From positions 1 to 20,622 of IMG/VR virus record IMGVR_UViG_3300046511_000540: a stretch of DNA of 20,622 nucleotides, one strand, 5' to 3'. Positions 804-18,217 of this stretch are shown in pieces; position 1 is the stretch's first letter, and every line of letters starts with the position of its first letter. The DNA comes from a virus. The position numbers and the translations under genes are program-made. The notes under the pieces were generated by a model. The model saw nothing but the letters and a program-made list of their open reading frames with translations, made no database searches and was not told the DNA's origin.

Positions 804-2594
804 GTGGCCGATGAATTCGTCACCGTCCCGCAGGACTTGACGCTTCTGAGTGATCAGGACCTGGCGGACCTCGAGGCGCGCGCCGTCGCTGAGTTCGACC
901 GGATCCGGGCTGACACGAACGTCACGCCCGAGGGTGTCGAGTATCAGATGCGACTCGCCACCGACATCGATCGCCTCCGTGCGACCATCGTCGGTCGTGA
1001 GGCCGCGGCCGCACGCGCGGCCGAGCAGCAGCGCGCCGCTCTGCTCGAGCAGCAGGCGACGCTGGATCAGCGCGTTCACGGTGCACGGCCCGAGGGCGAG
1101 GGTGGCTCAAGTGGCGGGGGAGGCGGTGCGCCGGTCATGGACACCGCAGCCATCGCCGAGGCCGCCGCACGCGGCGCAACCGCGGCTCTGGTCGCCGCGC
1201 TTGGCAACCGTCGGCTGGACAGCTCGACGATCAACGAGCGCGCCACCGCGACGCTGGCCCAGGCGCGCGCTCACGCGCCGGCACCAATCGTCGCCCGTCC
1301 CCGCCTGGCCGTCACGGCCGGCGTGGACATTCCGGGTGTTGCCCGCGGCGCCGAGATGGCCAGTCTCGACGAGCTGGTCGCCGCGTTCGGACGCGCGGCC
1401 AAGGGAATGCCAGTGACCCGCGACGGCCACGGACAAGAGCGACTGGTCGCGACGATCCGCAACGAGTTCGAGCACACCATCGACGACCGCACCTCTCCGG
1501 CGCAGGTCGAGGAGCTGTTCCGGCACCTCACGCGTCCCGAGAAGATGGAGTCACTGGTCGCGGGTGGTGGCTGGTGCGCTCCCAGCGAGATCCGATACGA
1601 GTTCTTCAACGTCGCCGACGTGGACGGCCTGGTAGATCTTCCCACGGTGGGCATCAGTCGCGGCGGCATTCGATTCCCGGTCTCGCCCAGCATCGCCGAC
1701 GCGTTCGGCACCACCGGCCTCGCGCCGTTCGCCATCGCGTTCGGCACCGGCTCCGACCCGTGGCTGTGGACCGAGACGGACGACATCGCGTCCGTGACCG
1801 GCGCAGGCGGCACGCCGTCCAAGCCCACGATGCGCGTCCCCTGCCCGACGTTCGGCGAGGCGCGACTGGAGTGCTACGGCATCACGCTGACCGCCGGCAA
1901 CCTGACGGACGACGCCTACCCCGAGTCGACCGCGAACACCCTGCGGCTTCTGCTCGCCGCGTGGCAGCACGCGCAGAACGCACGCATCATCGGTCAGATG
2001 GTCGCCCTCAGCTCGCCCGGTGCGACCGGTCTGGGCGCCGCGGGTAAGCCCGTCTACCAGACGGTGCTCAACGGCCTCGACCTCGTCGCTACCGACTACC
2101 GCAGCAAGTACGCCATCGCCGACGAGACGCCGGTGGAGGTCATCGCCCCGTTCTGGGTGCAGGACCTGATCACCGCGGACCTCGCGTGGCGCAACACGCT
2201 CAGCACCGACTTGCTCTCGGTCACCAACGCGCAGATGCAGGGCTTCTTCGCAGATCGAGGTCTGCGCGTCCAGTGGGTCAACGACTGGCAGGTGCGTGGC
2301 TCCGGCCAGTTCGGCCAGAACGTCGGTGGCGCCGCGACCCTGAACGCGTGGCCCACCTCGGCGCAGTTCATGATGTACGCCGCGGGCACGTTCGTGAAGG
2401 GCAACGGTCTCACGCTCGACTTGGGCGTCGTCCGCGACTCGGTGCTCAACAAGACCAACGACTACACCGCCGCATGGTCCGAGGAGTGCCACCTCGTCGC
2501 CAAGTTCGGACACGAGTCGCGACTCTTCACGTTGACGTTCGCCGTCGACGGCAACACGGGCGGCCAGGTCGCGGCCGGCACCGCGTCGCTGTAA
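804..2594 (+). CDS. Major capsid protein with fused N-terminal scaffold arm (HK97 fold)
   Basis: This 596-residue protein should form the icosahedral shell. Residues 1 to about 95 are acidic and Ala/Arg/Glu-rich, with predicted coiled coil (DLADLEARAVAEFDRI and the EAAAARAAEQQRAALLEQQ stretch). A Gly/Ser linker follows at about 96-112. This looks like a scaffold (delta) domain that the upstream protease would remove. The shell part begins around residue 240 and carries the actinophage capsid signature VAGGGWCAPSEIRYEF, then DLPTVGISRGGIRFP, a long central helix rich in NARIIGQMVAL, and a C-terminal beta segment with YTAAWSEECHLVAKFG. The length is large because of the arm plus a linker of about 120 residues. 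The start is GTG with an AAGGAGGT ribosome site. The major capsid assignment rests on these motifs and on the adjacent protease. Confidence 0.88.
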   Translation: MADEFVTVPQDLTLLSDQDLADLEARAVAEFDRIRADTNVTPEGVEYQMRLATDIDRLRATIVGREAAAARAAEQQRAALLEQQATLDQRVHGARPEGEGGSSGGGGGAPVMDTAAIAEAAARGATAALVAALGNRRLDSSTINERATATLAQARAHAPAPIVARPRLAVTAGVDIPGVARGAEMASLDELVAAFGRAAKGMPVTRDGHGQERLVATIRNEFEHTIDDRTSPAQVEELFRHLTRPEKMESLVAGGGWCAPSEIRYEFFNVADVDGLVDLPTVGISRGGIRFPVSPSIADAFGTTGLAPFAIAFGTGSDPWLWTETDDIASVTGAGGTPSKPTMRVPCPTFGEARLECYGITLTAGNLTDDAYPESTANTLRLLLAAWQHAQNARIIGQMVALSSPGATGLGAAGKPVYQTVLNGLDLVATDYRSKYAIADETPVEVIAPFWVQDLITADLAWRNTLSTDLLSVTNAQMQGFFADRGLRVQWVNDWQVRGSGQFGQNVGGAATLNAWPTSAQFMMYAAGTFVKGNGLTLDLGVVRDSVLNKTNDYTAAWSEECHLVAKFGHESRLFTLTFAVDGNTGGQVAAGTASL

Positions 2595-3579: not shown

Positions 3580-4254
3580 ATGGCCGCGATCTGTGGTACC
3601 CCGATCAAGGGTACGGTGCTGCGCATCGTTCAGCTGGACGTCTGTGGCAACCCCGTCACCGGCGCATCCAGCCACGTGATCATCAACAACCTGTTCACCC
3701 AGGTCCAGATGACACCGCAGTACGAGGCTGGCACGGACTTCTTCGAGCGCACCGCTGACGGTCTGATCGGCGTCAACCAGGTCGACCCGCCCATCCTCAA
3801 GCGCATGCAGATCCAGGTCGACATGATGACCGTCGACCCGGATATGATGCCGTACGTGCTGTCTGCACGCGAACTGACGACGAGCGCACCGGTGTCAGGC
3901 ACCGGCTTCGCCATGTCTGAGGGCGTCTCGACCGCACACTACTCACTCGAGGTCTGGCAGCGCGTCGCGGGCGCGGGTGCCTGCACACCGAGCGGCCTTG
4001 CGCAGTACGTGTACAACGCGTGGCCACACTGCTACAACACACAGGTCGCCGCGTACACGATCAGTAACGCGCGATCGGGTCTGAGCTTCCAGGCGGACAC
4101 CGCCGCGGCCGGAACACAGTGGCTGGACGGCCCGGGTACGTTGACCTGGCTGCCCACCGGCACACCGTCCGCACTCACCACCGAGCACTGGCTGTGGAAC
4201 ATCACGACCAACGTACCACCAACACCCGGGTGCGGCTTCGTAATCCTGCCGTAG
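3580..4254 (+). CDS. Major tail protein (tail tube)-like
   Basis: This 224-residue protein probably forms the tail tube. The N-terminus (CGTPIKGTVLRIVQLDVCG, then PVTGASSHVIINN and YEAGTDFFERTADGLIGVN) matches the pattern I know from a group of actinophage major tail proteins: a Cys-Gly-Pro start, a short strand, a 'YE-G' turn and an 'A-G-L' turn. It is followed by LKRMQIQVDMMTVDPDM, where family members have a conserved Val-Asp-Pro. The middle has YSLEVWQRVAGAGAC and WPHCYNTQVAAYTISNA, and the C-terminal part has GTQWLDGPG, all in family order. ATG 3580 follows the previous stop by five bases; GAAGGGA at 3562-3568 is the likely ribosome site. It sits before the connector genes. No other tail-tube candidate lies in the usual place between the connectors and the chaperones, which supports the call. 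Confidence 0.7.
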   Translation: MAAICGTPIKGTVLRIVQLDVCGNPVTGASSHVIINNLFTQVQMTPQYEAGTDFFERTADGLIGVNQVDPPILKRMQIQVDMMTVDPDMMPYVLSARELTTSAPVSGTGFAMSEGVSTAHYSLEVWQRVAGAGACTPSGLAQYVYNAWPHCYNTQVAAYTISNARSGLSFQADTAAAGTQWLDGPGTLTWLPTGTPSALTTEHWLWNITTNVPPTPGCGFVILP

Positions 4255-4262
4255 GAGGCGCC

Positions 4263-5204
4263 GTGAAGGCTGAGGCAAGCACAGGCTTCGGCGCAACGCT
4301 CAAGACGCGCGTGATGCGCGCGCCCAGGCCTAAGGGCGTCTTATCGGTGCGCGTGCCGGGCATGGGACGCGTCATGTTTACACGCGATCCCGGCGACTCG
4401 ATGCTACTGGCGCGCGAGGTGTTTCTCACGCACCTGTTCGCGACTCACCGTGGTCCCGACGGTCGGGTCATCGAGCAGCGCGACCTAGGTTCAGGACTGG
4501 TCACCAACGTCGGCGTCCTCGCGCTCGCCAACGACTTCCAGTGGCTACCCGGCCAGACTATCGCGCTGAACTTATTCCGTGTCCTGGGCAATCACGCCAC
4601 TGGGATCGGAGTCACCGCGGCCGCGGTCACGGACATCAAGCTGCAGACACCGTCCAGCTTCGGCGGTCAGACGATGGTCGCTGGCGTGCAGACGTTTATC
4701 CCAGGCACCAACGCGGGTGGCACGACCACCAGCACCACCGGGACGAACAAGTTCCAGTCGGTCGCCACGATCAACTACACCGGCACCGAGGCCGTCACCG
4801 AGTGGGGTCTGCTCGGAACCCTGGGTGCGATCGGCGGCACAGCGCTGTCGACCGCGACCGGCTCGCCGTTCACCGCGGGTGACGCGACGCACGGCACGGT
4901 CACCGCGACACCGCTCACCGCGTCGGCCGCGGGTGTGCAGGGTCAGGTACTGACCGTCGTCGAGAACACTGGCAACGCGACCCCACACTGGGGCCTGGTC
5001 ACTGCCAACTCCACTTCGATCTTCACGGTGCCCGCGTGGTACAAGGTCTCGGACAGCACCGCTGCCGGTACCTTCCCGGCGAACACCAACACGTTCGTCA
5101 ACCGTCCGATCATGTGGGATCACAAGGTCTTCGCCGCGATCAACGTGAACTCCGGCGACTCCATCCAGTTCACCTACCAGCTGACGCCCAACCAGGGCGG
5201 CTAG
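4263..5204 (+). CDS. Beta-rich virion protein, function unknown
   Basis: 313 residues starting at GTG 4263, five bases after a TAGGAGG that combines the previous stop with a good ribosome site. The first 55 residues are basic and Arg-rich (KTRVMRAPRPKG). The rest is Thr/Gly/Ala/Asn-rich with alternating hydrophobic residues, as in beta sandwiches. The C-terminal end has NRPIMWDHKVFAAINVNSG followed by SIQFTYQLT, a strand pattern common in phage structural proteins. No catalytic motif or transmembrane segment is visible. It is the first gene of a block of six accessory virion genes between the tail-tube and connector genes. A head decoration, collar or tail-fibre role are all possible. An earlier in-frame ATG at 4119 would overlap the tail gene by 136 bases and lacks a ribosome site, so GTG 4263 is preferred. 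Confidence 0.6.
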   Translation: MKAEASTGFGATLKTRVMRAPRPKGVLSVRVPGMGRVMFTRDPGDSMLLAREVFLTHLFATHRGPDGRVIEQRDLGSGLVTNVGVLALANDFQWLPGQTIALNLFRVLGNHATGIGVTAAAVTDIKLQTPSSFGGQTMVAGVQTFIPGTNAGGTTTSTTGTNKFQSVATINYTGTEAVTEWGLLGTLGAIGGTALSTATGSPFTAGDATHGTVTATPLTASAAGVQGQVLTVVENTGNATPHWGLVTANSTSIFTVPAWYKVSDSTAAGTFPANTNTFVNRPIMWDHKVFAAINVNSGDSIQFTYQLTPNQGG

Positions 5205-5205
5205 C

Positions 5206-5760
5206 ATGCCGATCCGCACCGGGTATGCCAACCTGCTCAACGACCCGCTCCCGGGTCCCGTCACTTCGAACACCTTCACCGGTCCCCAAGACCTGATTGC
5301 GGGCACGGTCGCACCCGCCGCACAGCCCTGCCTGATCCCCGCGAACTACATCAAGGATGGCGGTACGTACCGCACGACCGCGGCGGGTACGTTCTCGACG
5401 ACGGGCACGCCCACGCTCGTGTTTGGTCTGTACTTCGGCACGACGGTCCTGGCGGTCTCGGTCGCGTTCACCACGGCTTCGGGCGCCGTCACGCTGCCGT
5501 GGCGATTCCAGGTCGAGACCGTTGTCTACTCGTCGAACCCAAACACGGCGATCGTCACGGACACGTCGGGGTACCTGCACTTTGGCACGACGGTCGCCGC
5601 GATCACGCAGCAGCCGGTGCCCGGCATCGCACAGGCGAGCGTGAACATCGACAACTCCGCTGCACAGCTCTGGGCGGTCAAGGCGACATACTCTGCGTCG
5701 TCGTCGTCCAACATCGTCATCTTGCGTAAGTGGATCGTCGAGGAACTCACCCAGATCTAG
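5206..5760 (+). CDS. Jelly-roll-like minor virion protein
   Basis: 184 residues, starting one base after the previous stop codon; no clear ribosome site is visible, so translation is probably coupled. The sequence has the look of a short beta-sandwich virion protein: TGPQDLIAGTVAPAAQPCLI, then IPANYIKDGGTYRTTAAGTF, TLVFGLYFGTT, and a C-terminal strand ending IVILRKWIVEELTQI. The combination 'IPANY-K-G-TYR-TAAGT-STTGTPTL-FGLYFG' recurs, to my recollection, in structural proteins of many actinophages, where its role is usually unassigned. No membrane segment, signal peptide or catalytic motif is seen. It shares the operon with the neighbouring beta-rich genes and may be a head surface or fibre-base component. 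Confidence 0.65.
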   Translation: MPIRTGYANLLNDPLPGPVTSNTFTGPQDLIAGTVAPAAQPCLIPANYIKDGGTYRTTAAGTFSTTGTPTLVFGLYFGTTVLAVSVAFTTASGAVTLPWRFQVETVVYSSNPNTAIVTDTSGYLHFGTTVAAITQQPVPGIAQASVNIDNSAAQLWAVKATYSASSSSNIVILRKWIVEELTQI

Positions 5761-5768
5761 GAGACGTC

Positions 5769-6038
5769 ATGGCAGCACCGATTGTGTCGGGTTCACTCGA
5801 CAACCAGGCACCGACCATCGGTCAGGTGCTGACCCTGACCGTGAACTACTCCGACCCGGACGCGACGACGAACACGATCACGATCACCGGCACCGACGCC
5901 GAGGGACACCCCGGCACGGCCACCGTAACTTACACGGTCGGTGACCCGGTGACGCTCGCCGTCGCCGACTCGTCCGGCCGCGTCTGGTCCAAGATCTCAG
6001 ACACGGGTGCGATCGCCGTGTATCGGACGACCGTCTGA
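5769..6038 (+). CDS. Small Ig-like beta domain protein
   Basis: 89 residues from ATG 5769, with AGGAG at 5759-5763 overlapping the previous stop codon. The sequence starts APIVSGSLDNQAPTIGQVL and has SDPDATTNTITITGTDAEGH and GTATVTYTVGD, the strand-turn pattern of an Ig- or cadherin-like repeat, then a C-terminal segment VADSSGRVWSKISDTGAIAV. Residues 35-57 are clearly related to residues 4-26 of the next protein. Ig-like modules of this sort are common on phage capsids and tails, where they bind host surfaces weakly. It may be a complete decoration protein or the detached N-terminal part of the next gene. There is no cysteine. Confidence 0.65.
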   Translation: MAAPIVSGSLDNQAPTIGQVLTLTVNYSDPDATTNTITITGTDAEGHPGTATVTYTVGDPVTLAVADSSGRVWSKISDTGAIAVYRTTV

Positions 6039-6117
6039 GATGAGCACGGCGACCGTCACGGTCACCGCGACGGACCGCGAGGGGCACGCCGCGCAGGCCA
6101 CCGTGACTTACACCGAT
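5871..6117 (+). repeat. Duplicated Ig-like segment across two genes (copies 5871-5939 and 6049-6117)
   Basis: The two 69-base copies encode 23-residue stretches that match at 14 of 23 positions by eye: T-I-T-I-T-G-T-D-A-E-G-H in the first and T-V-T-V-T-A-T-D-R-E-G-H in the second, both ending A-T-V-T-Y-T. Copy one is in the middle of the 89-residue Ig-like protein. Copy two is at the very start of the beta-helix protein. They lie in different reading frames, separated by a stop and a new start. Confidence 0.75.
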
Positions 6118-6984
6118 CTGGCAGTGGCCGGAGTCGGTGTTCCACCGGGTACTGTCTTAAAGCGTGTGCCGCAGGACGTCACCACCGCAGCGCAAGCCGG
6201 CGGGATCAACTCCGGGTGGGGGTGGGACGGGACGAGGATCAACGCCTCGACCAACGGCGTCATCGACCGGGTTGACGTGAACGGCGCGGTGTACAACAAC
6301 GGCGGCACTGACGCCCGCACCGCCGGGAAACTCACCATCACCAAAAGCAAGATCCGGTGCACCAACGAGAACAACTGGGGTGTGACCCTCGGCTCCGGCT
6401 CACTGCTGCAGGACTGCGAGGTCGGCGGTGGTGCGAACGGCACAACCATCTGGGGCGCGATCGGTGTCCTCGCCGGGCGGTGGAACGCCGCGCAGACCAC
6501 GGCCATCGTGCAACGCTGCTACATCCATCACGTCGAGCACGGTGGCCGTTCCGACGGCAACGCTCACTGGCTGAACAACCTCATCGACGCGCTCCCGACG
6601 AACGACTCCACCAACCACGTCGACGGGATCATGTGCACCGCTGGTGACGACAACCTCTTCGACGGGAACACGTTCCGCGCAGCGGTGAACAACTCCCAGA
6701 TCTTCATCCAGTGGCAGACCGGCAACGTCAACATCGGCGTCGTCACGATCAGCAATAACACGTTCGAGTGTCACTGCGACAGCTCGGGTCAGTGTCCGTC
6801 GTGGGGTGTCGGCTTCGAGCATAAGGGCCTCGCGTCGGGGAAGACTCGCACCATCTCCAACAACGTCTTCCAGCGTGGCTGGGGTGGATCGCAGACTGGC
6901 ACGCCGATCGAGTGTCCTACTGGGACTACCGTCACGGGCAACAAGTTCACCGACGGTTCGGCGGCGACGGTTCAGTTCGTCTAA
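6040..6984 (+). CDS. Parallel beta-helix protein (tailspike or surface-depolymerase-like)
   Basis: 314 residues from ATG 6040, one base after the previous stop and without a good ribosome site, so translation is probably coupled. Residues 4-26 repeat part of the upstream Ig-like protein. From about residue 60 the sequence looks like a right-handed parallel beta-helix: regularly spaced short strands and Asn/Gly turns such as KLTITKSKIRCTNENNWGV, SLLQDCEVGG, AIVQRCYIHHVEHGG, HWLNNLIDALP, NHVDGIMCTAGDDNLFDGNTF, VVTISNNTFECHCD and TRTISNNVFQRGW. Such helices occur in pectate-lyase-type enzymes and phage tailspikes that bind or cut polysaccharide. HVDGIMCTAGDDN is a plausible active or binding groove, but I cannot assign catalytic residues. 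Seven Cys are present. It could act on the capsule or cell-wall glycan, or be a purely structural fibre. Confidence 0.72.
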   Translation: MSTATVTVTATDREGHAAQATVTYTDLAVAGVGVPPGTVLKRVPQDVTTAAQAGGINSGWGWDGTRINASTNGVIDRVDVNGAVYNNGGTDARTAGKLTITKSKIRCTNENNWGVTLGSGSLLQDCEVGGGANGTTIWGAIGVLAGRWNAAQTTAIVQRCYIHHVEHGGRSDGNAHWLNNLIDALPTNDSTNHVDGIMCTAGDDNLFDGNTFRAAVNNSQIFIQWQTGNVNIGVVTISNNTFECHCDSSGQCPSWGVGFEHKGLASGKTRTISNNVFQRGWGGSQTGTPIECPTGTTVTGNKFTDGSAATVQFV

Positions 6985-6999
6985 GAGAGGTAGGCTCAC

Positions 7000-9246
7000 G
7001 TGCCCGCGCCTACCTACCCATCGGCCGCGGACCTCGTCGAGGGCACCGGCACCCGCTCGTTTGGCGCGGTGACGACGCAGGCCGGCGACTGGCTCTTCGT
7101 CGAGATCGCGACCGAACGCAACGACCCCACCGGGGTGACATTCCCAGCGACGTGTCCGACGTTGATCTTCTCTGTGCAGAACGACACCGGCGGCTCAACT
7201 ACCGGTGATCACTCGCAGATCTACCAGACCACCGCACCTGACGCCGCTGGCGGTTCCCGCACCGTCACGATCACACCGTCGCAGGGCACCTACCGTTACC
7301 GGGCGCGACTGACCGTAGTTCGTGGCTCGGCCGGGCCCGGTGGCAAGGCCAAGACCGCCGCATCAACGTCGGGGCAGACGGTGTCTCTCGCCCGGCAGGG
7401 CGACAACTCTGGGGTATTCGTCACCCTGGGCGACTTCACAGCGGGTGCGGTTGGGTCGCCTACCGTCACCCCCGGCGGTTCGATCACGGCGTCACAGCAG
7501 GGCACCGGTGCGACGTACGTGTTTGGTCGGTGGGACGACTCCGGCGCGAAGGCGACCGCCACGACGGGCATCGCCACGGCGGTGTACACCACACCAGCAG
7601 TCGCCGTACTGGAGATGCTCGGACTATCATCGAGCGTATCGGCGTTCGTTCCACCGCGTGACTACCTCTCACCCATGAACGTCGCGGCCCGTGTCACGCT
7701 CGGGAGTATGGCGGCGACGGCCAACGCGTTCACCTCGACGCTTACCGCCACCGTCGGGTTCACGGGTGTGGACAACGTGCTGGTGGGTAGTAACCAGACC
7801 GCACAGCTGCCGTTCACCGGTGTGACTGTTAAGCGGACGATTAAGAGTGCACTGGCCGCAACAGTTGGCTTCACTGGTAGTCTCGCGTCGGCCGCGGTGC
7901 ACCACTTCACCCAGGCACTTACAGCAGCGCTGTCCTTCACCGGCACGCAGACGCGAAAGATCAACACGACCGACGCCGCGGGCGTTGGGTTCACCGGTGC
8001 ACTGGTGCGAAAGATCTTCGACACCGAGACGGCGACCCTTGGGTTCACCGGTGCGCTACCACGCGCGATCACACGCGGGTTGACCGCAGCGGTTAGCTTC
8101 ACCGGTGCGACCGCAAAGCGAACCGTGACGACTCTTACGGGTGCCACGCTCAGCTTCACCGGTTCGCTAGGCAGCGCCGCGGTGCACCACTTCACGCAGG
8201 CGTTGAGCGCGACGCTATCTTTCACGGGTGCACAGACGCGCAGGATCTTCAGCGGGCAGTCCGCGACGCTGTCACTCACCGGCGCGTTGGCACGTCGAAC
8301 CACTAAGTCACTTACCGCAGCGACGGTGTCCTTCACGGGTGCCGTCGTTAAGACCACATCGCGGACGCTGGGCGCGGCGCTGAGCTTCACCGGCACGCTG
8401 TCACGACGGACTAGTCACGGTCTGAGTGCCACCGTCTCGTTTACCGGTTCACTGACGTCGGCAGCGGTGCATCACTTCACGCAGGCGTTGAGCGCGAGCA
8501 TCGGCTTCACCGGCAGTCTCTCCACGCAGGTCGCGCACTTCTTCACGCAGGCACTCACCGCGACCGTGGGCTTCACGGGTAAGCAGATTAACGCGATCAG
8601 CAAGGGCGTCTCGGCGACGGTCGGCTTCACCGGCGCACTTCCGCGCAAGATCAGCACGGTCCGTTCGGCGACCGTAAGTTTCACCGGTGCACTGACGCGT
8701 CGGGTCGGCAGCGTGCAAGCGGCGACTCTGGCGTTCGTGGGTGTGATCGTTAAGAAGACGAGCACCGCGCGCGTCGCCACGCTGGCTTTCACGGGTAGTC
8801 TCACGTCGCAGGTCGCGCACTTCTTTACTAAGTCGTTGTCCGCGACGCTGTCTTTCACTGGCAGTCTGACAAGTGCGCACATCTTCACCAAGATCTTAAC
8901 GGCATCGGTCGGTTTCACCACGTCGCTGACGCGGCGCACCGTTCGCTTACTTGCCGCGGGTCTCTCGTGGACCGGTGTTCAGACGAGACGCATCAGCACG
9001 CGACTTACCGCTGATCTGTCGTTCAGCACGGTCTTCAGCTTTATCCCACACGTGCTCGCCAACATCACGAACCTACGCATTCGAGTCGCGGGTCGGGTCG
9101 GGCGGATCTTCGGTGTTGGGCGAGAGGGTCCCTCAGGTGGTGTAGGTGGTCTAGGATCGACGCACGGAGCCGGAGCCGAGGGAATCGACACGGCAAGCGG
9201 CCGTGAAGGCGTCGACGACGCGAGTGGTGAGGAGGCCGGGACGTGA
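7000..9246 (+). CDS. SFTG-repeat fibre protein (748 aa)
   Basis: GTG 7000 follows AGAGAGGT at 6984-6991. Residues 1 to about 215 form a beta-rich domain (GDWLFVEIATER, SRTVTITPSQGTYRYRARLT, ATYVFGRWDDSG), of the globular lectin-like type common at phage fibre heads. Residues about 246-677 consist of 23 degenerate repeats with the core A-T-(V/L)-S-F-T-G, mostly 18 residues long, with some units of about 22 residues carrying an extra (V/A)H(H/F)F-type insert. Between cores lie basic segments such as LTRRTS. Residues about 690-748 are a Gly-rich tail that becomes acidic (GVGREGPSGGVGG to DDASGEEAGT). SFTG-type repeats are, to my recollection, found in other phage virion proteins, but their structure is not known to me. 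They would suit an elongated beta-solenoid or thin fibre. Ser and Thr are abundant, making it a possible substrate for the glycosyltransferase encoded at 19970. No enzymatic motif is seen. Confidence 0.75.
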   Translation: MPAPTYPSAADLVEGTGTRSFGAVTTQAGDWLFVEIATERNDPTGVTFPATCPTLIFSVQNDTGGSTTGDHSQIYQTTAPDAAGGSRTVTITPSQGTYRYRARLTVVRGSAGPGGKAKTAASTSGQTVSLARQGDNSGVFVTLGDFTAGAVGSPTVTPGGSITASQQGTGATYVFGRWDDSGAKATATTGIATAVYTTPAVAVLEMLGLSSSVSAFVPPRDYLSPMNVAARVTLGSMAATANAFTSTLTATVGFTGVDNVLVGSNQTAQLPFTGVTVKRTIKSALAATVGFTGSLASAAVHHFTQALTAALSFTGTQTRKINTTDAAGVGFTGALVRKIFDTETATLGFTGALPRAITRGLTAAVSFTGATAKRTVTTLTGATLSFTGSLGSAAVHHFTQALSATLSFTGAQTRRIFSGQSATLSLTGALARRTTKSLTAATVSFTGAVVKTTSRTLGAALSFTGTLSRRTSHGLSATVSFTGSLTSAAVHHFTQALSASIGFTGSLSTQVAHFFTQALTATVGFTGKQINAISKGVSATVGFTGALPRKISTVRSATVSFTGALTRRVGSVQAATLAFVGVIVKKTSTARVATLAFTGSLTSQVAHFFTKSLSATLSFTGSLTSAHIFTKILTASVGFTTSLTRRTVRLLAAGLSWTGVQTRRISTRLTADLSFSTVFSFIPHVLANITNLRIRVAGRVGRIFGVGREGPSGGVGGLGSTHGAGAEGIDTASGREGVDDASGEEAGT
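7735..9030 (+). repeat. 23 tandem SFTG-type coding repeats
   Basis: The array encodes 23 units, mostly 54 bases (18 residues), with longer units of about 66 bases at units 3, 8, 13, 14 and 19. The DNA copies have mostly diverged, but a 25-base stretch is identical at 8188-8212 and 8473-8497. The His-His insert recurs exactly 285 bases apart at 7900, 8185 and 8470. A related His-Phe insert recurs 282 bases apart at 8536 and 8818. Confidence 0.85.
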
Positions 9247-9584
9247 GTCCTTCCATCGCCATCGGACCGTTCGTCGTCGGGGAGAAGCCGGCACCCTTGC
9301 TCTACACCTTCGAGGACTCCAACGGTGTCGTCATCGATCTCACGGGTTACACGGCGAAGTACTTCGTGAAGGAACGAGACAGCGGCATCACACCTGCTGC
9401 GCTAGCGGCTACGGTACCCGTGCCGCTACAGGGACAGGTGCAGTACTCGTGGGTGGGTTCCGAGTTTCCGACACCGGGCCACTACCTGTCCGAGTTCTGG
9501 GTGGGTAACCTCACGCAGCGCTGGTGCAGCATCTTGATCGAGTTTGACGTGCGCTGGTCACTCGGCGTGGTGCCGAACATCTAG
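9243..9584 (+). CDS. Small beta-sandwich virion protein (BppU N-terminal-like)
   Basis: 113 residues starting at a GTG that overlaps the previous stop (GTGA at 9243-9246), so translation is probably coupled to the fibre gene. The pattern IAIGPFVVGEKPAPLLYTFE, then GVVIDLTGYTAKYFVKERDS, GQVQYSWVGSEFPTPGHYL and EFWVGNLTQRW resembles the small N-terminal domain of baseplate upper proteins and similar phage beta-sandwich modules that describe 'T-F-D-G-x-x-x-D-L-T-G'. That domain usually anchors a receptor-binding protein to the tail. Here it stands alone and is coupled to the fibre gene, so it may be an adaptor for the SFTG protein. This is an inference from position and fold pattern only. Confidence 0.55.
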   Translation: MSPSIAIGPFVVGEKPAPLLYTFEDSNGVVIDLTGYTAKYFVKERDSGITPAALAATVPVPLQGQVQYSWVGSEFPTPGHYLSEFWVGNLTQRWCSILIEFDVRWSLGVVPNI

Positions 9585-12431: not shown

Positions 12432-15400
12432 ATGACGGCGCCCATTGATCGAGCTTACGTCGAGGTAGTTCCTGATCTTCGAAAGTTCAAAGAGAAGCTT
12501 AAGACCGACGTCGCGTCGGGTGTGAAGGGTGTCGGCGAGCAGTTCAACGGCGTCACCAGTGCGGCGAAGACCAGCGCCGAGAAGTCGGCGGGTCACTTCA
12601 AGCGCGCCTTCGGGGGCGTGGGTTCGTCGATCAAGAGCATCGTCGGACCCATGCTCGCGATCGGCACCATCGTCGGTGGGTTCTCGTTCCTGAAGGGTGC
12701 AGTCGAGAGCGCCGAGGCCGCACGTAAGGCGATGGCCCAGACCCAGGCCGTTATCAAGTCGACGGGTGGGGCCGCTCACGTCTCGGCAGGTGACGTGAAG
12801 GACCTGGCGCTCGGTCTCAGCTCGATGACCGGCATCACGGCAGGCACGATCCGCGCGAACGAGAACCTGCTACTGACGTTCACCGGCGTCCGCAACGAGG
12901 TCGGCAAGGGCAACGACATCTTTAACCAAGCCAGCCAGGCCGTGCTGGATATGTCGGTGGCCCTGAAGGAGGATGGCAAGAGCGCCAGCATACAACTGGG
13001 TAAGGCGCTGCAAGACCCGATCAAGGGTGCCACCGCGCTGCGCCGCGTCGGCGTCGCGCTCACGCAGCAGCAGCAGGACGCGATCAAGCACTTCGTCGCG
13101 ACGGGACACACGCTCGAAGCACAGAAGATCATTCTCAAAGAGCTGACCACTGAGTTTGGCGGCAGCGCGGCGGCGCAGGCCACCGCAGGCGACAAGATGC
13201 GCGCAACGTGGGCGCGCGTGAAGACCCAGATCGGTGAGGTGCTGCTGCCGACGGTCGAGAAGTTCCAAGACTTCGTGGCGAAGAAGCTGCTGCCCGGCAT
13301 CTCAGAGATGATCAAGGGATTCCAGAACGGCACCGGCACCTTCGGAACGATCAAGGAGCTGTTCCGATCAACGCTGGATGTGCTTCGGCCACTGGTTGCC
13401 ATGGTCATCGGCTTTGCCCGTGACGCGTGGGGTGCAGTCCAGAAGATCTTAGTGAATGAGATCATCCCTGCGCTTAAGAAGGTGGCGCAGTTCATCAGGG
13501 AACACGGCACACTTGTGCGCACCGTCGTCGTCGGAGTGCTGGCCTTCTACGCCGCGTGGAAGGTCGCCGAGAAGAGCATTGCGATCATTAAGGCCATCGG
13601 TGCGGCGTTGACCTTCGCGTCAGCGAATCCAATCGTGATCATCATCGCCGCAATCGTCGCGCTGGTTGCGGCGTTCATCTACGCTTACAAGCACAGTCAG
13701 AAGTTCCGTGACATAGTTGATCAAGTCATCGATAACGTGCAGCACGCGTTCAAGAACTTCATGCACGCGGTCGACAACGTGAAGCACGCGTTCGACAACG
13801 TGTGGCACGCGGGCGAGAACTTCATTCACGCAGTCGAGAACATCATTCACGCCGTTGGCAACTTCATCCACGCGATCGGTAACCTCATCCACGCCGGTGA
13901 GAACGTGGGACACGCGCTTGGCAACGTGGTGCACTTCTTCACCAGCATTCCGCGGTACATCGAAGATGCGGGCAAGGCGATCGTCGGGTTCTTCACCGAT
14001 CTGCCCAGTAACATTCTCAAGCTTCTCTACCAGGCACCCACGTGGCTGATCAACGCCGGCATCTTTCTCATTAAGGGATTCTTCACTGGACTTTTGGACG
14101 AGTGGAAGCTCCAAGTCAAGTTCTTCACGGCACTCCCTGGGCTGATCATCAAGTTCTTCGCGAATGCACCCACGTGGTTGCTCGAGGCAGGCAAGTTCAT
14201 TCTCAAGGGTCTGCTGACCGGGCTCAAGATCTACTGGGAGATCGTCAAGTTCTTCTACTGGAGCATTCCGAAGTTCATCTTGAAGATATTCGTCAGTGCA
14301 GGTTCGTGGCTGGTCGACGCCGGTCGGCGGATCATCGGCGGTCTGTTCTCTGGGATTAAGACAGCGTTCCTCACCGTCGCCAAGTGGTGGCTCGGCCTAC
14401 AGCTGTGGGTCTTGCGGATATTCATCAACGCACAGGTCTGGCTACTGAGGGCCGGCGCTGCGATAATCTCGGGTCTGTGGCACGCGATCAGTGGCGCGTG
14501 GAACAGCACCGTAGGTCCGTTCTTTGCAAACGTCGGCTCTGCCATCGTCAATAAGTTCGCCAACGCGGTCAACTGGCTCATCACCGCGGGCCACAACGTC
14601 ATCAGCGGCATCTGGAATGGCATGGGTGCCGTGTGGGCGAGTGTAAAGACGTGGCTCGGTAGACGCAAGCAGGCTGTGCTCGACGCACTCGGTGACGCCA
14701 CCAAGTGGCTCTACAGCGTCGGCAGGAACGTCATCACGGGTCTCTGGAACGGGATCAAGGCGCTCGGCACGTGGCTTAAGGATCAGATCCTGAAGATCGT
14801 TCCTAAGTGGATCAAGGACGCACTTGGGATTCACTCGATTCCCGGGTGGGCGGTCGACATCGGCAAGTGGATCGCCCGAGGACTGGCCGCGGGCATCAAG
14901 AAGTTTCCTCACTTCATAAGCAACCTCGCCAAGATGGCGCGCGACAAGCTCAGCAACATCGGCATCGGGTCGGGGTTCGACATACCCAAGCTGGCGCAGG
15001 GTCTGTACCAGCAGTACGCCGCGAGTCTGTTCGCCGCGCACGGGTGGGCTAAGAACCAACTGGCGCCGCTGGTCGCGCTGTGGCAGGGTGAGTCCGGGTG
15101 GAATCCGAAGGCGAAGAATCCATCGTCTGGCGCCTACGGCATCCCCCAGTCGCTACCCGCGTCGAAGATGGACTCATACGGCGATCGCAACGATCCCGCT
15201 GTGCAGATCCGCTGGGGTCTCGACTACATCAAGGGTGCGTACGGCACGCCGTCCAACGCGTGGGCGCAGTGGCAGGCGCGGTCCCCACACTGGTATCACC
15301 AGGGAGCGTGGGAGATCCCGCGTGATCAGTTCGCGTTCCTGCAGCGCAAAGAGATGGTCGTGCCCGCTCCGGCCGCTGAGAAGTGGCGCGCAAATCAAGA

Positions 15401-15548
15401 GATCGACTACGAGCGGCTGGCTCGCGTACTGGCGAAGGAGCTGGGACGCGCGATGTCCAACGTCAGCATCGAGCTCGATGGCGCGCAGGTTGCAACCTCC
15501 GTCACCAAGCGCCAGGGTGCCAAGGCAGCGAAGGGTCCGAGACGATGA
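12432..15548 (+). CDS. Tape measure protein with transglycosylase domain
   Basis: 1038 residues, starting eight bases after the chaperone stop with only a weak AGGT. It fills the tail tube and sets tail length. Order of parts: a soluble N-terminal portion (APIDRAYVEVVPDLRKFKEK; coiled-coil and Gly/Ala-rich to about 350); two hydrophobic segments (about 365-376 and 400-419, ANPIVIIIAAIVALVAAF); a 70-residue heptad array (435-504); and six repeats of about 44 residues (535-800) with W-L-x-x-A-G-x-x-[IV]-[IL]. A C-terminal peptidoglycan transglycosylase-like domain follows at about 870-950, with the putative catalytic Glu887 in GESGWNPKAKNPSSGAYGIPQ's first half and GAYGIPQ at 900-906. Its WGLDYIKGAYGTP segment matches secreted actinobacterial enzymes, so it may cut cell wall at entry. 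Confidence 0.87.
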   Translation: MTAPIDRAYVEVVPDLRKFKEKLKTDVASGVKGVGEQFNGVTSAAKTSAEKSAGHFKRAFGGVGSSIKSIVGPMLAIGTIVGGFSFLKGAVESAEAARKAMAQTQAVIKSTGGAAHVSAGDVKDLALGLSSMTGITAGTIRANENLLLTFTGVRNEVGKGNDIFNQASQAVLDMSVALKEDGKSASIQLGKALQDPIKGATALRRVGVALTQQQQDAIKHFVATGHTLEAQKIILKELTTEFGGSAAAQATAGDKMRATWARVKTQIGEVLLPTVEKFQDFVAKKLLPGISEMIKGFQNGTGTFGTIKELFRSTLDVLRPLVAMVIGFARDAWGAVQKILVNEIIPALKKVAQFIREHGTLVRTVVVGVLAFYAAWKVAEKSIAIIKAIGAALTFASANPIVIIIAAIVALVAAFIYAYKHSQKFRDIVDQVIDNVQHAFKNFMHAVDNVKHAFDNVWHAGENFIHAVENIIHAVGNFIHAIGNLIHAGENVGHALGNVVHFFTSIPRYIEDAGKAIVGFFTDLPSNILKLLYQAPTWLINAGIFLIKGFFTGLLDEWKLQVKFFTALPGLIIKFFANAPTWLLEAGKFILKGLLTGLKIYWEIVKFFYWSIPKFILKIFVSAGSWLVDAGRRIIGGLFSGIKTAFLTVAKWWLGLQLWVLRIFINAQVWLLRAGAAIISGLWHAISGAWNSTVGPFFANVGSAIVNKFANAVNWLITAGHNVISGIWNGMGAVWASVKTWLGRRKQAVLDALGDATKWLYSVGRNVITGLWNGIKALGTWLKDQILKIVPKWIKDALGIHSIPGWAVDIGKWIARGLAAGIKKFPHFISNLAKMARDKLSNIGIGSGFDIPKLAQGLYQQYAASLFAAHGWAKNQLAPLVALWQGESGWNPKAKNPSSGAYGIPQSLPASKMDSYGDRNDPAVQIRWGLDYIKGAYGTPSNAWAQWQARSPHWYHQGAWEIPRDQFAFLQRKEMVVPAPAAEKWRANQEIDYERLARVLAKELGRAMSNVSIELDGAQVATSVTKRQGAKAAKGPRR
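13734..13943 (+). repeat. Ten tandem 21-base units, heptad N-x-x-H-A array
   Basis: Ten perfectly in-register units of seven residues (codons 435-504), each starting Asn and carrying His at position 4, with Ala at position 5 in nine of ten. Examples are NVQHAFK, NFMHAVD, NVKHAFD, NFIHAVE and NLIHAGE. All ten Asn codons are AAC and all ten His codons are CAC. The other positions vary, so this is a conserved pattern rather than a simple DNA repeat, although recent expansion is possible. Confidence 0.9.
14034..14831 (+). repeat. Six repeats of about 44 residues in the tape measure protein
   Basis: Units of 44, 44, 44, 45, 44 and 45 residues (codons 535-800) begin APTWLINAG, APTWLLEAG, AGSWLVDAG, AQVWLLRAG, AVNWLITAG and ATKWLYSVG. 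Each continues with an Ile/Leu-rich part and a Gly at position 15 (for instance LIKG, IISG, VITG). The conserved Trp at position 4 and Gly at position 9 mark each unit. A partial seventh unit, PGWAVDIGKWIARGLAAG, follows. Confidence 0.85.
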
Positions 15549-18217
15549 CGATCCAGACACTGCGGCCTAACGCCCTGGTCCGCAACGCAGGCATCACTGC
15601 GGTCGGCGGCACTCCCGCCGGCGTCGTGTCTGACAACTCTGACGCCACGTACGACCTGGGTACACGCAAGGACGCGTACCTCGCGGTCGACTACGGTTCA
15701 CTCTCAGCACTTGGCGCGACCCAGCGTGTTAAGTCGTGCCAGCTACGCATTCGTAGTGCCGCCGACGTATCTGGGACCGCGTCATCAGTGACGACATATT
15801 CTCTGCAGAACTTTACTACAGGTGGAACACCAGTAGGAGCAACCACAGTCCGGCGCGGAACGACATCGATCTTGACTCAATCCGGTGCAATCGCGTACGT
15901 GGGTCCAGGTGGCCGTGCGTGGACCGAAGCCGAAGTCAATGCCACTGGCAGCTGGACGCAGTGGTCACTTGCTGACGGCGGTGTGACACACTTTGCCCGC
16001 GTTCATGAGCTCTACATGGACGTGGACATCAACGATCAGCCGATTGTGACTGGTGCGCCTACGGTGACTAACGTCACCAACAACGCAACTCCTACCGTGT
16101 CCTGGGTGTACACCGACGCCGACAACGATCCACAGACGCACTTTCAAGTCAAGATCTTTGACTCAACGACATACGGCACTGGTAACTTCTCACCCGACAC
16201 CTCAACGGCAGCGTATGACTCTGGTGACATGACTGGGCAGGACGCCCAGCTTATCACGACTGCACAGCTACAGAACGGAGTAACGTACCAAGCGTATGTG
16301 CGCGCCGCACAGGACTGGCCGGGACCGCAGGGTTCGGTGTGGTGGTCCGCGTGGGCGACATCCGCTCCGTTCACGATCAGCTTTACCGCACCGTACACTC
16401 CCTCGATCTCATCGGCCGCGGTACTCGCCGACGCCAACGACTACCGCACAATCCTCGGTGTGGATGCGCCGGTGAACTTGCTTACCGCGGGTTCAGCTTC
16501 GTTTGAAGGTGGTGTGGGCAGCTGGGTCGCAGATGCAAACTGCTCGATCAGCTCGGTTGCCACCGATCACCTTGATGGCGTGAACTGCATGCAGATGTCG
16601 TCGACTGCGGCGGGCAACATGATCGCCCGCTGTGAGCTCGATTTTCTCGGTGATCCAGTGGTTGACGTGGGTAAGACGGTCACAGTAATCGCATCGTTTA
16701 AGACCGCAGTGACGTCACGCTCGTGCTCGGTCGGAATTCGCTGGTATGCATCGGACGAAGTGACACAGATCGGTGCTGACCAGTTTGGCTCGACGATCTC
16801 AGATACAACGGGCGCGGCGGGCACCAACTGGACGCAGGCCGTTCTCACCACGACGGTGCCCGCGGGTGCGGTGCACGCGAAGGCGTTAGCGCGCGTCGCT
16901 GCGACGGGCGGCGCCGCAGAGCTTCATCGCGTCGACAACGTATCATTTCACGCCGGTTCGGTCACGACGTGGACACCCGGTGGCTACGTTAACTCGGCGG
17001 GTGACCTCATTCTTGAGCGTGGTGAACGTCTGCAGTCAGCACGTGGCCCGGCCGAAAATTGGGCGAGTATGCAGGTGTGGTCGTGTGCCACCGAGATCCG
17101 CAACCAGGGCCGAGGCTTCTCGTGGAACCTCATTGATCGTCTCGACTGGATGTGGTTGGATAAGGTCATCTCGGCTCCGGGTGCGACGCCCGCGGGTATG
17201 CTACGTTGGGGTCCTGTCACTGCAACAACGTCGGGTCTGGCGTTCGGCTGGTGGCCTTACTTTCCGGCGAAGGACTATGCATTTCCGATCGTGCCTGGGT
17301 TGTCACACGTGTTTTCGGTCTGGGCTTGGTGCGACGTCGGTACGTTTGTCATCACGCCTAAACTTGAGTGGAAGAACGACGATGAGTCACCCAACTCGGC
17401 GGTGACTGGATCAAACGTGACACTCACCACGACGCCGCAACAGATCGTGGTGAGTGGTGTAGCACCCGCTGCGCCGGCGTCAATGGCTCGCGGTCTGATT
17501 ACCAACACAAACTCTGACAACACTAAGCACGTGTTCTTCACACGCTGCGGGTTTGGTCTGGGAACCGTGCCGGTCGACGGTAAGCAGCCGATGGGTGGAC
17601 CGATTGTCTGGAGGTCGATCCGCTTTCCGATCGATGAGTTTGCCAGCTTCGCCGTTGGGTTTGACAGTCAGCAGCACAGAGTGTACGCAGACTTTGAGTA
17701 CCCAGCCGGACGACCAGTGCTCTACCGCGCATCAATCGCGTACTCATCAGGCGTAAGCAACGTCGTGAAGTCTGCATATTCGCAGCAGGCGGTCGTGTAT
17801 AACGCTCCTCCCACGCAGACTATCTTGCGATCAATCACCAACCCGCTGCTGCAGGTCGCGGTGAATCGACGTAAGTCCGCGGCGTTCACACACGTCGATG
17901 ACGCAGTGATCTTTCACCCGCTTGGCGCTGACGGGGCACCTGTGCGGGTGCGTGACTGGGTAGGCGGCGAGGATGGGCAGTTGATCATCGTCACATCCAC
18001 TGAGGCGCAGTTGGCACGGTTAAAGAGCTTGATCACCTCGGGTGACGTGCTGCAGGTGCAGTGGGCACAGGGTGGCCGCTCGTACATCTTACTTACTGAT
18101 CGCACGATGGACGAGACGATCAGTGTGGATACTGACTGGTGCGACGCCGACGGCACACAGAGTTGGATCCGCTACGCCGTGCACACACTGGCATACGTCG
18201 AGACGGTGGCGCCCTGA
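15545..18217 (+). CDS. Large minor tail protein (tail tip) with FN3 and carbohydrate-binding-like domains
   Basis: 890 residues; ATG 15545 overlaps the tape measure TGA (ATGA). In order: an N-terminal beta domain (1 to about 162, NSDATYDLGTRKDAYLAVDY, HELYMDVDIND), a fibronectin-III-like module (about 165-278, PTVTNVTNNATPTVSWVYTD to TYQAYVRAAQDW), then a jelly-roll carbohydrate-binding-like part (about 309-477) with SFEGGVGSW and HRVDNVSFHAG. A second beta-rich region comes next (ILERGERL, KLEWKNDDESPNSAVTGSN). A C-terminal tail domain from about 781 has FTHVDDAVIFHPLGADGAPV. It likely belongs to the tail tip and contacts the cell surface. The gene looks lower in GC than the capsid gene (see findings), suggesting different ancestry. 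Its position right after the tape measure is where distal-tail proteins normally lie. Confidence 0.78.
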   Translation: MTIQTLRPNALVRNAGITAVGGTPAGVVSDNSDATYDLGTRKDAYLAVDYGSLSALGATQRVKSCQLRIRSAADVSGTASSVTTYSLQNFTTGGTPVGATTVRRGTTSILTQSGAIAYVGPGGRAWTEAEVNATGSWTQWSLADGGVTHFARVHELYMDVDINDQPIVTGAPTVTNVTNNATPTVSWVYTDADNDPQTHFQVKIFDSTTYGTGNFSPDTSTAAYDSGDMTGQDAQLITTAQLQNGVTYQAYVRAAQDWPGPQGSVWWSAWATSAPFTISFTAPYTPSISSAAVLADANDYRTILGVDAPVNLLTAGSASFEGGVGSWVADANCSISSVATDHLDGVNCMQMSSTAAGNMIARCELDFLGDPVVDVGKTVTVIASFKTAVTSRSCSVGIRWYASDEVTQIGADQFGSTISDTTGAAGTNWTQAVLTTTVPAGAVHAKALARVAATGGAAELHRVDNVSFHAGSVTTWTPGGYVNSAGDLILERGERLQSARGPAENWASMQVWSCATEIRNQGRGFSWNLIDRLDWMWLDKVISAPGATPAGMLRWGPVTATTSGLAFGWWPYFPAKDYAFPIVPGLSHVFSVWAWCDVGTFVITPKLEWKNDDESPNSAVTGSNVTLTTTPQQIVVSGVAPAAPASMARGLITNTNSDNTKHVFFTRCGFGLGTVPVDGKQPMGGPIVWRSIRFPIDEFASFAVGFDSQQHRVYADFEYPAGRPVLYRASIAYSSGVSNVVKSAYSQQAVVYNAPPTQTILRSITNPLLQVAVNRRKSAAFTHVDDAVIFHPLGADGAPVRVRDWVGGEDGQLIIVTSTEAQLARLKSLITSGDVLQVQWAQGGRSYILLTDRTMDETISVDTDWCDADGTQSWIRYAVHTLAYVETVAP

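Follow-up and report, generated by a model that had tools for sequence, protein, structure and literature searches.

Gene context of the array

The DNA analysed here (the window), IMG/VR record IMGVR_UViG_3300046511_000540, is linear, comprises 20,622 bases and carries the structural module of an uncultured phage. Genes for head, tail and tape measure proteins were located in it (Table 1), and the major head protein resembles, at about 35% identity, its counterparts in phages of Gordonia, Mycobacterium and Microbacterium. The gene under study lies within this virion structural module and encodes a fibre-like protein, composed of an N-terminal domain, an array of 22 units and a short C-terminal tail. 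From the gene context we infer that the protein is located on the virion and serves in binding. Relatives found by tblastn align to it only from residue 218 onward.

In Gordonia phage Wizard, the head-tail adaptor gene directly follows that of the major tail protein. At the same junction the window carries an extra run of genes (4119-9246), the array gene among them. These extra genes are fibre-like, and Wizard has none between its major tail protein and head-tail connector genes; head or tail decorations could be encoded in this block. The gene layout of the window recurs in L135 and L136, two contigs that read as one phage, where the array gene is likewise placed between major tail protein and adaptor, whereas in L129 and L137 it stands beside distal tail genes. 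The array gene overlaps at its end with a small gene (9243-9584) that gives weak matches to BppU_N (Pfam) and phrog_1084, and a gene of the same kind also follows the array in L135. The tape measure protein has a repeat of its own: at 13729-13940, shortly downstream of a membrane-like stretch, about nine 7-residue repeats with a period of 21 bases carry His at every seventh place (HAVDNVKHAFDNVWHAGENFIHAVENIIHAVGNFIHAIGNLIHAGENVGHAL).

Table 1. Genes of the structural module and parts of the array gene; U1-U22 are the array units in order.
Feature	Position	Strand	Remarks
Major head protein	804-2594		phrog_777
Major tail protein	at 3580		phrog_792
Array gene (ORF, 748 aa)	7000..9246	+	unit lengths U1-U22: 18,19,22,18,18,18,19,22,18,19,18,18,22,22,18,18,18,18,22,20,18,18
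N-terminal domain (residues 1-243)	7000..7728	+	without family match
Array entry half-unit FTSTLTATVG	7729..7758	+	like second half of long units
Lead short units U1-U2	7759..7869	+
Long unit U3	7870..7935	+	22 aa, VHHFTQ
Short units U4-U7	7936..8154	+	18, 18, 18, 19 aa; U4 with Gln5
Long unit U8	8155..8220	+	22 aa, VHHFTQ
Short units U9-U12	8221..8439	+	18, 19, 18, 18 aa; U9 with Gln5
Long unit U13	8440..8505	+	22 aa, VHHFTQ
Long unit U14	8506..8571	+	22 aa, VAHFFTQ; adjoins U13
Short units U15-U18	8572..8787	+	4 x 18 aa; U15 with Gln5
Long unit U19	8788..8853	+	22 aa, VAHFFTK
Long unit U20	8854..8913	+	20 aa, SAHIFTK
Short units U21-U22	8914..9021	+
Terminal unit and C-terminal tail	9022..9243	+	IPH...NLRIRV.GR and final GEE[AP]GT in common with L135
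Tape measure protein	12432-15548
Further tail protein	at 18139		phrog_1887

Long and short units

The 22 units, each anchored on an FTG motif, were called both by eye and by dynamic-programming segmentation, and the two agree over the array. A preliminary description of this DNA had stated that the array is not uniform and that longer VHHFTQ inserts occur in units 3, 8 and 13 at distances of 285 bases. This is confirmed; the motif begins at 7897, 8182 and 8467, the positions given before (7900, 8185 and 8470) being those of its first His. The second variant it had described, AHFFT, is indeed present twice, 282 bases apart, starting at 8533 and 8815, within one residue of the places given. The long units it listed are all real, and a sixth, U20, had been overlooked. 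Consecutive long units thus stand 5, 5, 1, 5 and 1 units apart (285, 285, 66, 282 and 66 bases from start to start).

A self-scan of the protein gave its strongest lag at 18 residues and the next at 95, as the proposed super-period would have it. Tandem Repeats Finder reports no array here, so the repeat is old at the DNA level. That 285 bases occur twice is partly a coincidence, since an extra residue falls in U7 of the first block and in U10 of the second; the constant is the number of units, not that of residues.

Composition of the units was compared over the window and its relatives. Units of 18 residues (n=99) are hydrophobic at positions 1, 5, 9, 13 and 17, with Gly at position 3, Arg or Lys at 7 and Lys, His or Arg at 11. 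All 19 units of 22 residues have His11, Phe or Tyr at 13 and Gln or Lys at 15, and not one of 121 short units has Phe or Tyr at the place matching position 13 of the long ones. Gln5 is found in every short unit directly following a long one (11/11) and in 11 of 33 elsewhere. Between proteins, long units are 61% identical and short units 38%. The second half of the long unit ([FY]TQ-L-A-LS) resembles the array entry in seven of nine proteins, as if each long unit restarted the array. The window array is basic and almost free of acidic residues (5 in 421), as are the arrays of its relatives; counts of Lys plus Arg against Asp plus Glu are 38/5 in the window, 31/0 in L001, 39/0 in L129, 38/2 in L135 and 39/1 in L137.

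Spacing of long units in related phages

Viral contigs from IMG/VR, scanned with patterns and at the protein level, yielded four relatives (L001, L129, L135/L136 and L137) which form, together with the window, what we define here as the five-unit FTG super-repeat clade. Its members possess FTG-anchored units of 18-19 residues with Arg or Lys at 7 and Lys11; 22-residue units with His11, Phe/Tyr13 and Gln/Lys15, separated by four short units; and Gln5 in the short unit that follows a long one. All three traits are present in the window. The relatives share with it the basic 18-residue FTG units and the 22-residue H.F.Q unit at every fifth place; their N-terminal domains, lead lengths and C-terminal tails differ. 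The array ORFs of L001 and L129 end in unrelated short repeats of their own, about ten residues long, which follow the array.

Long units occupy positions 3, 8, 13, 14, 19 and 20 in the window, 4, 9 and 14 in L001, 8, 13 and 18 in L129, 6, 11, 12, 17 and 18 in L135/L136, and 2, 6, 11, 12, 17 and 18 in L137. In 11 of 12 cases in the five phages, the run of short units between long ones is exactly four. In the same order of phages, the runs leading into the array comprise 2, 3, 7, 5 and 1 units and those trailing it 2, 3, 4, 2 and 2. Unit number can thus differ before the first and after the last long unit, but stays constant between long units. The block of one long and four short units, as proposed from the window, is supported by its recurrence in these four relatives together with its block-position features.

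Six long units among 22 could be expected to show some equal spacings merely by chance, and single arrays do leave room for this explanation: under random placement, the three pairs of long units five units apart in the window have p of about 0.05, and the corresponding values are 0.16 for L135 and 0.34 for L137. L001 (0.01) and L129 (0.007) argue against it. Pooled, the five phages contain 11 such pairs where 3.6 would be expected (p < 5e-5; 20,000 shuffles never gave as many), a value to be taken as a guide only, because the random-placement null ignores common descent and the five phages are not phylogenetically independent. The comparison of inner runs with lead and tail runs, which does without a null model, tells more. 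The relatives, together with the Gln5 signature seen in 11 of 11 units after a long one, largely refute chance placement, which we regard as hardly credible.

Window, L135 and L137 have the same layout up to the array end, L-ssss-L-L-ssss-L-l-ss (L and l, long units; s, short units), the window carrying one block more in front. This common C-terminal layout may be simply inherited. Collinear short units of the window are not recognisably orthologous to those of L135 (p 0.33) or L137 (p 0.07).

Outside the clade, the 18-residue unit of the window type, interspersed with units of 20 or 22 residues, was found with other or irregular spacing. Short units between long ones number 3, 3, 3, 0, 2 and 1 in L002, 3 and 0 in L044, 2 and 2 in L128, and 4, 0 and 2 in L058, and the spacing in L111 and L052 is irregular. 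Irregularly placed long units in related proteins, named beforehand as evidence against the super-period, therefore do exist in these distant relatives and are absent from the closest ones. Since the distant relatives have other spacings, five is a property of the clade and not general to the unit fold. Two of these proteins, L111 (740-6346) and L052 (1544-4621), are very long, and their version of the unit is more hydrophobic; in L111 a Laminin_G_3 domain separates two arrays.

Age of the blocks

The preliminary description had further suggested that the gene grew by block duplication and that the identical stretches of 25 bases at 8188-8212 and 8473-8497 point to recent block copying or gene conversion. 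The stretches are identical as described. With codon usage taken into account, such identity in this one pair has p 0.0012 before correction for multiple comparisons; with about ten pairs of long units and many possible start points it becomes unremarkable, a weak and post hoc observation. The blocks of the window share 50-59% DNA identity, and within the window a common block position does not make short units more similar to one another (p 0.41; lag-5 p 0.66). Recent block duplication in the window is therefore rejected; growth by duplication long ago is likely.

Short units of the window do resemble units in the same block position of relatives (p 0.0026). The U8-U12 block is 63% identical to U4-U8 of L001 and 54% to the neighbouring U3-U7 of the window itself. 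As this block is closer to that of another phage than to its own neighbour, the blocks, and with them the five-unit module, most likely predate the split of window and L001. As far as sequences can tell, the five-unit spacing, shared with four other phages, is an old trait that this family of fibres has kept and no accident of recent copying.

Block copying is visible elsewhere in the wider family. In L128, whose array ORF lies on the minus strand and whose super-period is three units, a three-unit block has been copied at 83% DNA identity, a recent duplication. Protein identity between blocks is 67% in L129 and 62% in L137.

Predicted structure

AlphaFold2 models of the window protein from U8 to the end (pLDDT 60) and of L129 from the first long unit (pLDDT 57) are all-beta. 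These low-confidence models are drawn as beta-solenoids with about one 18-residue unit per coil, not five, and so do not show the turn of a solenoid suggested earlier for a five-unit block. AlphaFold2 is reported to favour beta-solenoids for perfect repeats and to do so less for diverged repeats (PMC11795689). The best structural match of both models is the beta-helical domain of MpAFP, a Ca2+-dependent antifreeze protein (PDB 3p4g; Z 20.2 and 18.7, with an rmsd of 2.9 and 3.4 over 261 and 255 residues, respectively). Sequence identity to this domain is 8-11% and the array is nearly devoid of acidic residues for calcium, so that the likeness is one of fold only, and of low-confidence models. 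Z-scores to tailspikes and lyases were set aside, the arrangement being common to low-confidence solenoid models, and Foldseek with the models returned nothing at E 0.001 or better. A solenoid rung measures about 4.8 angstrom; if one unit equals one rung, five units would extend over about 24 angstrom.

Interpretation of the spacing

The units, their common spacing, the invariant residues and the age of the blocks come directly from the sequences. We infer a fibre function, a solenoid-type fold and a structural reason for the held spacing, and favour, with moderate confidence, the following explanation. The array would be the shaft of a virion-surface fibre (an adhesin), built of basic 18-residue beta units, each of them probably one rung. 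In every fifth unit four residues are added, the conserved Arg7 and Lys11 of the short unit giving way to His11 and Gln/Lys15, with Phe/Tyr13 entering. This 22-residue variant, together with Gln5 of the following unit, may form one local feature, such as a side loop, a cap or a joint. Arrays would have grown long ago by addition of whole ancestral five-unit modules which then diverged, and the distance of five would have been held because these features have to recur at a fixed interval along the fibre; the special rung would have to point to one particular side or provide a contact.

The spacing might instead be a relic of duplication, an ancestral block of five having been copied and its period persisting, with no structural need, merely because units are gained and lost as whole blocks. 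Spacing that is constant by blocks and differs by lineage (four short units in the clade, three in L002, two in L128), the fresh block copy in L128, and the difference of one whole block between window and L135 or L137, in front of a conserved C-terminal layout, are all what such a history would leave. Blocks as diverged as those of the window have, however, had time for changes of single units, and these have altered the leads, which vary from 1 to 7, and hardly ever the runs between long units; long units are, moreover, far better conserved between proteins than short ones. We therefore consider the relic rather unlikely. Because the two ends of the array vary in unit number and the stretches between long units do not, readings in which the long unit is a local feature or a joint are favoured over it. 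The joint is a variant of our preferred explanation: each long unit would end one rigid segment and enter the next, giving a fibre of hinged five-rung segments in place of an unbroken rod that bears side loops. Likeness of the long unit's second half to the array entry points this way, as do the strands of the window model, which break inside long units (pLDDT 60). Both models nevertheless align over nearly their full length to continuous solenoids, albeit with low confidence, and hinged segments appear to us unlikely.

Phage fibres are commonly trimers, and a shaft of another trimeric kind, a triple beta-spiral or triple-stranded beta-helix in which long units contribute an axial His/Gln layer or a metal site, is a possibility that we entertain tentatively. 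The invariance of His11 in long units would suit it. As a general feature the metal site is rejected, because the position that corresponds to His11 is occupied by Gln, Glu or Asn in units of L111. One may also imagine the long units as a comb or ruler of regularly spaced binding loops (His, aromatic and Gln residues) on the basic shaft, with a pitch matching a polyanion of the host cell wall or a partner protein; we think this decidedly improbable. The preferred explanation, a shaft with an ancestral five-unit module whose features are held apart by structural need, would accommodate the free ends and fixed inner runs, which in any case offer a clean, testable case of higher-order organisation along a phage fibre.

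Comparison with known systems

Searches of the array against Pfam, PHROGs, NCBIfam and PDB sequences gave nothing significant, and its alignment could thus define a new family. A tblastn search of 50,697 phage records with the arrays of the window, L001 and L002 gave no match, although low-complexity filtering may hide some. The true relatives came from a stricter DNA pattern and from a long-unit pattern; a further long-unit scan added only a false match (L140) and the remainder of the L136 contig. An array profile detects all eight relatives tested and none of 396 genomes from the phylum of a Kribbella genome, and a single scan of bacterial genomes returned simple-repeat matches only. A literature search, limited to open papers, found nothing relevant on super-repeats in phage fibres.

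A looser DNA pattern, four F-x-G at 54 bases, caught mostly collagen-like phage proteins (L008 and others). They also form long tandem arrays, but with Gly at every third residue; the array units lack this and the proteins are unrelated. A calcium beta-roll of the RTX or MpAFP type was likewise rejected, the unit profile having no Asp/Gly-rich motif and the array five acidic residues in all.

Tandem-repeat fibres are common in phages, and to our knowledge hardly anything is known of constraints on their lengths and unit orders. What is new here is that a predicted fibre of this kind has a higher-order repeat which is conserved. The super-repeat principle itself is known from nebulin, where seven simple repeats at a time make up a super-repeat that contains one conserved motif and fits the spacing along a partner filament (PMC7109182). 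The principle is alike in outline; nebulin is a muscle protein and bears no relationship to the array. Should the long units act as a ruler, the five-unit pitch would be matched to a repeating polymer or partner much as the super-repeats of nebulin match the thin filament.
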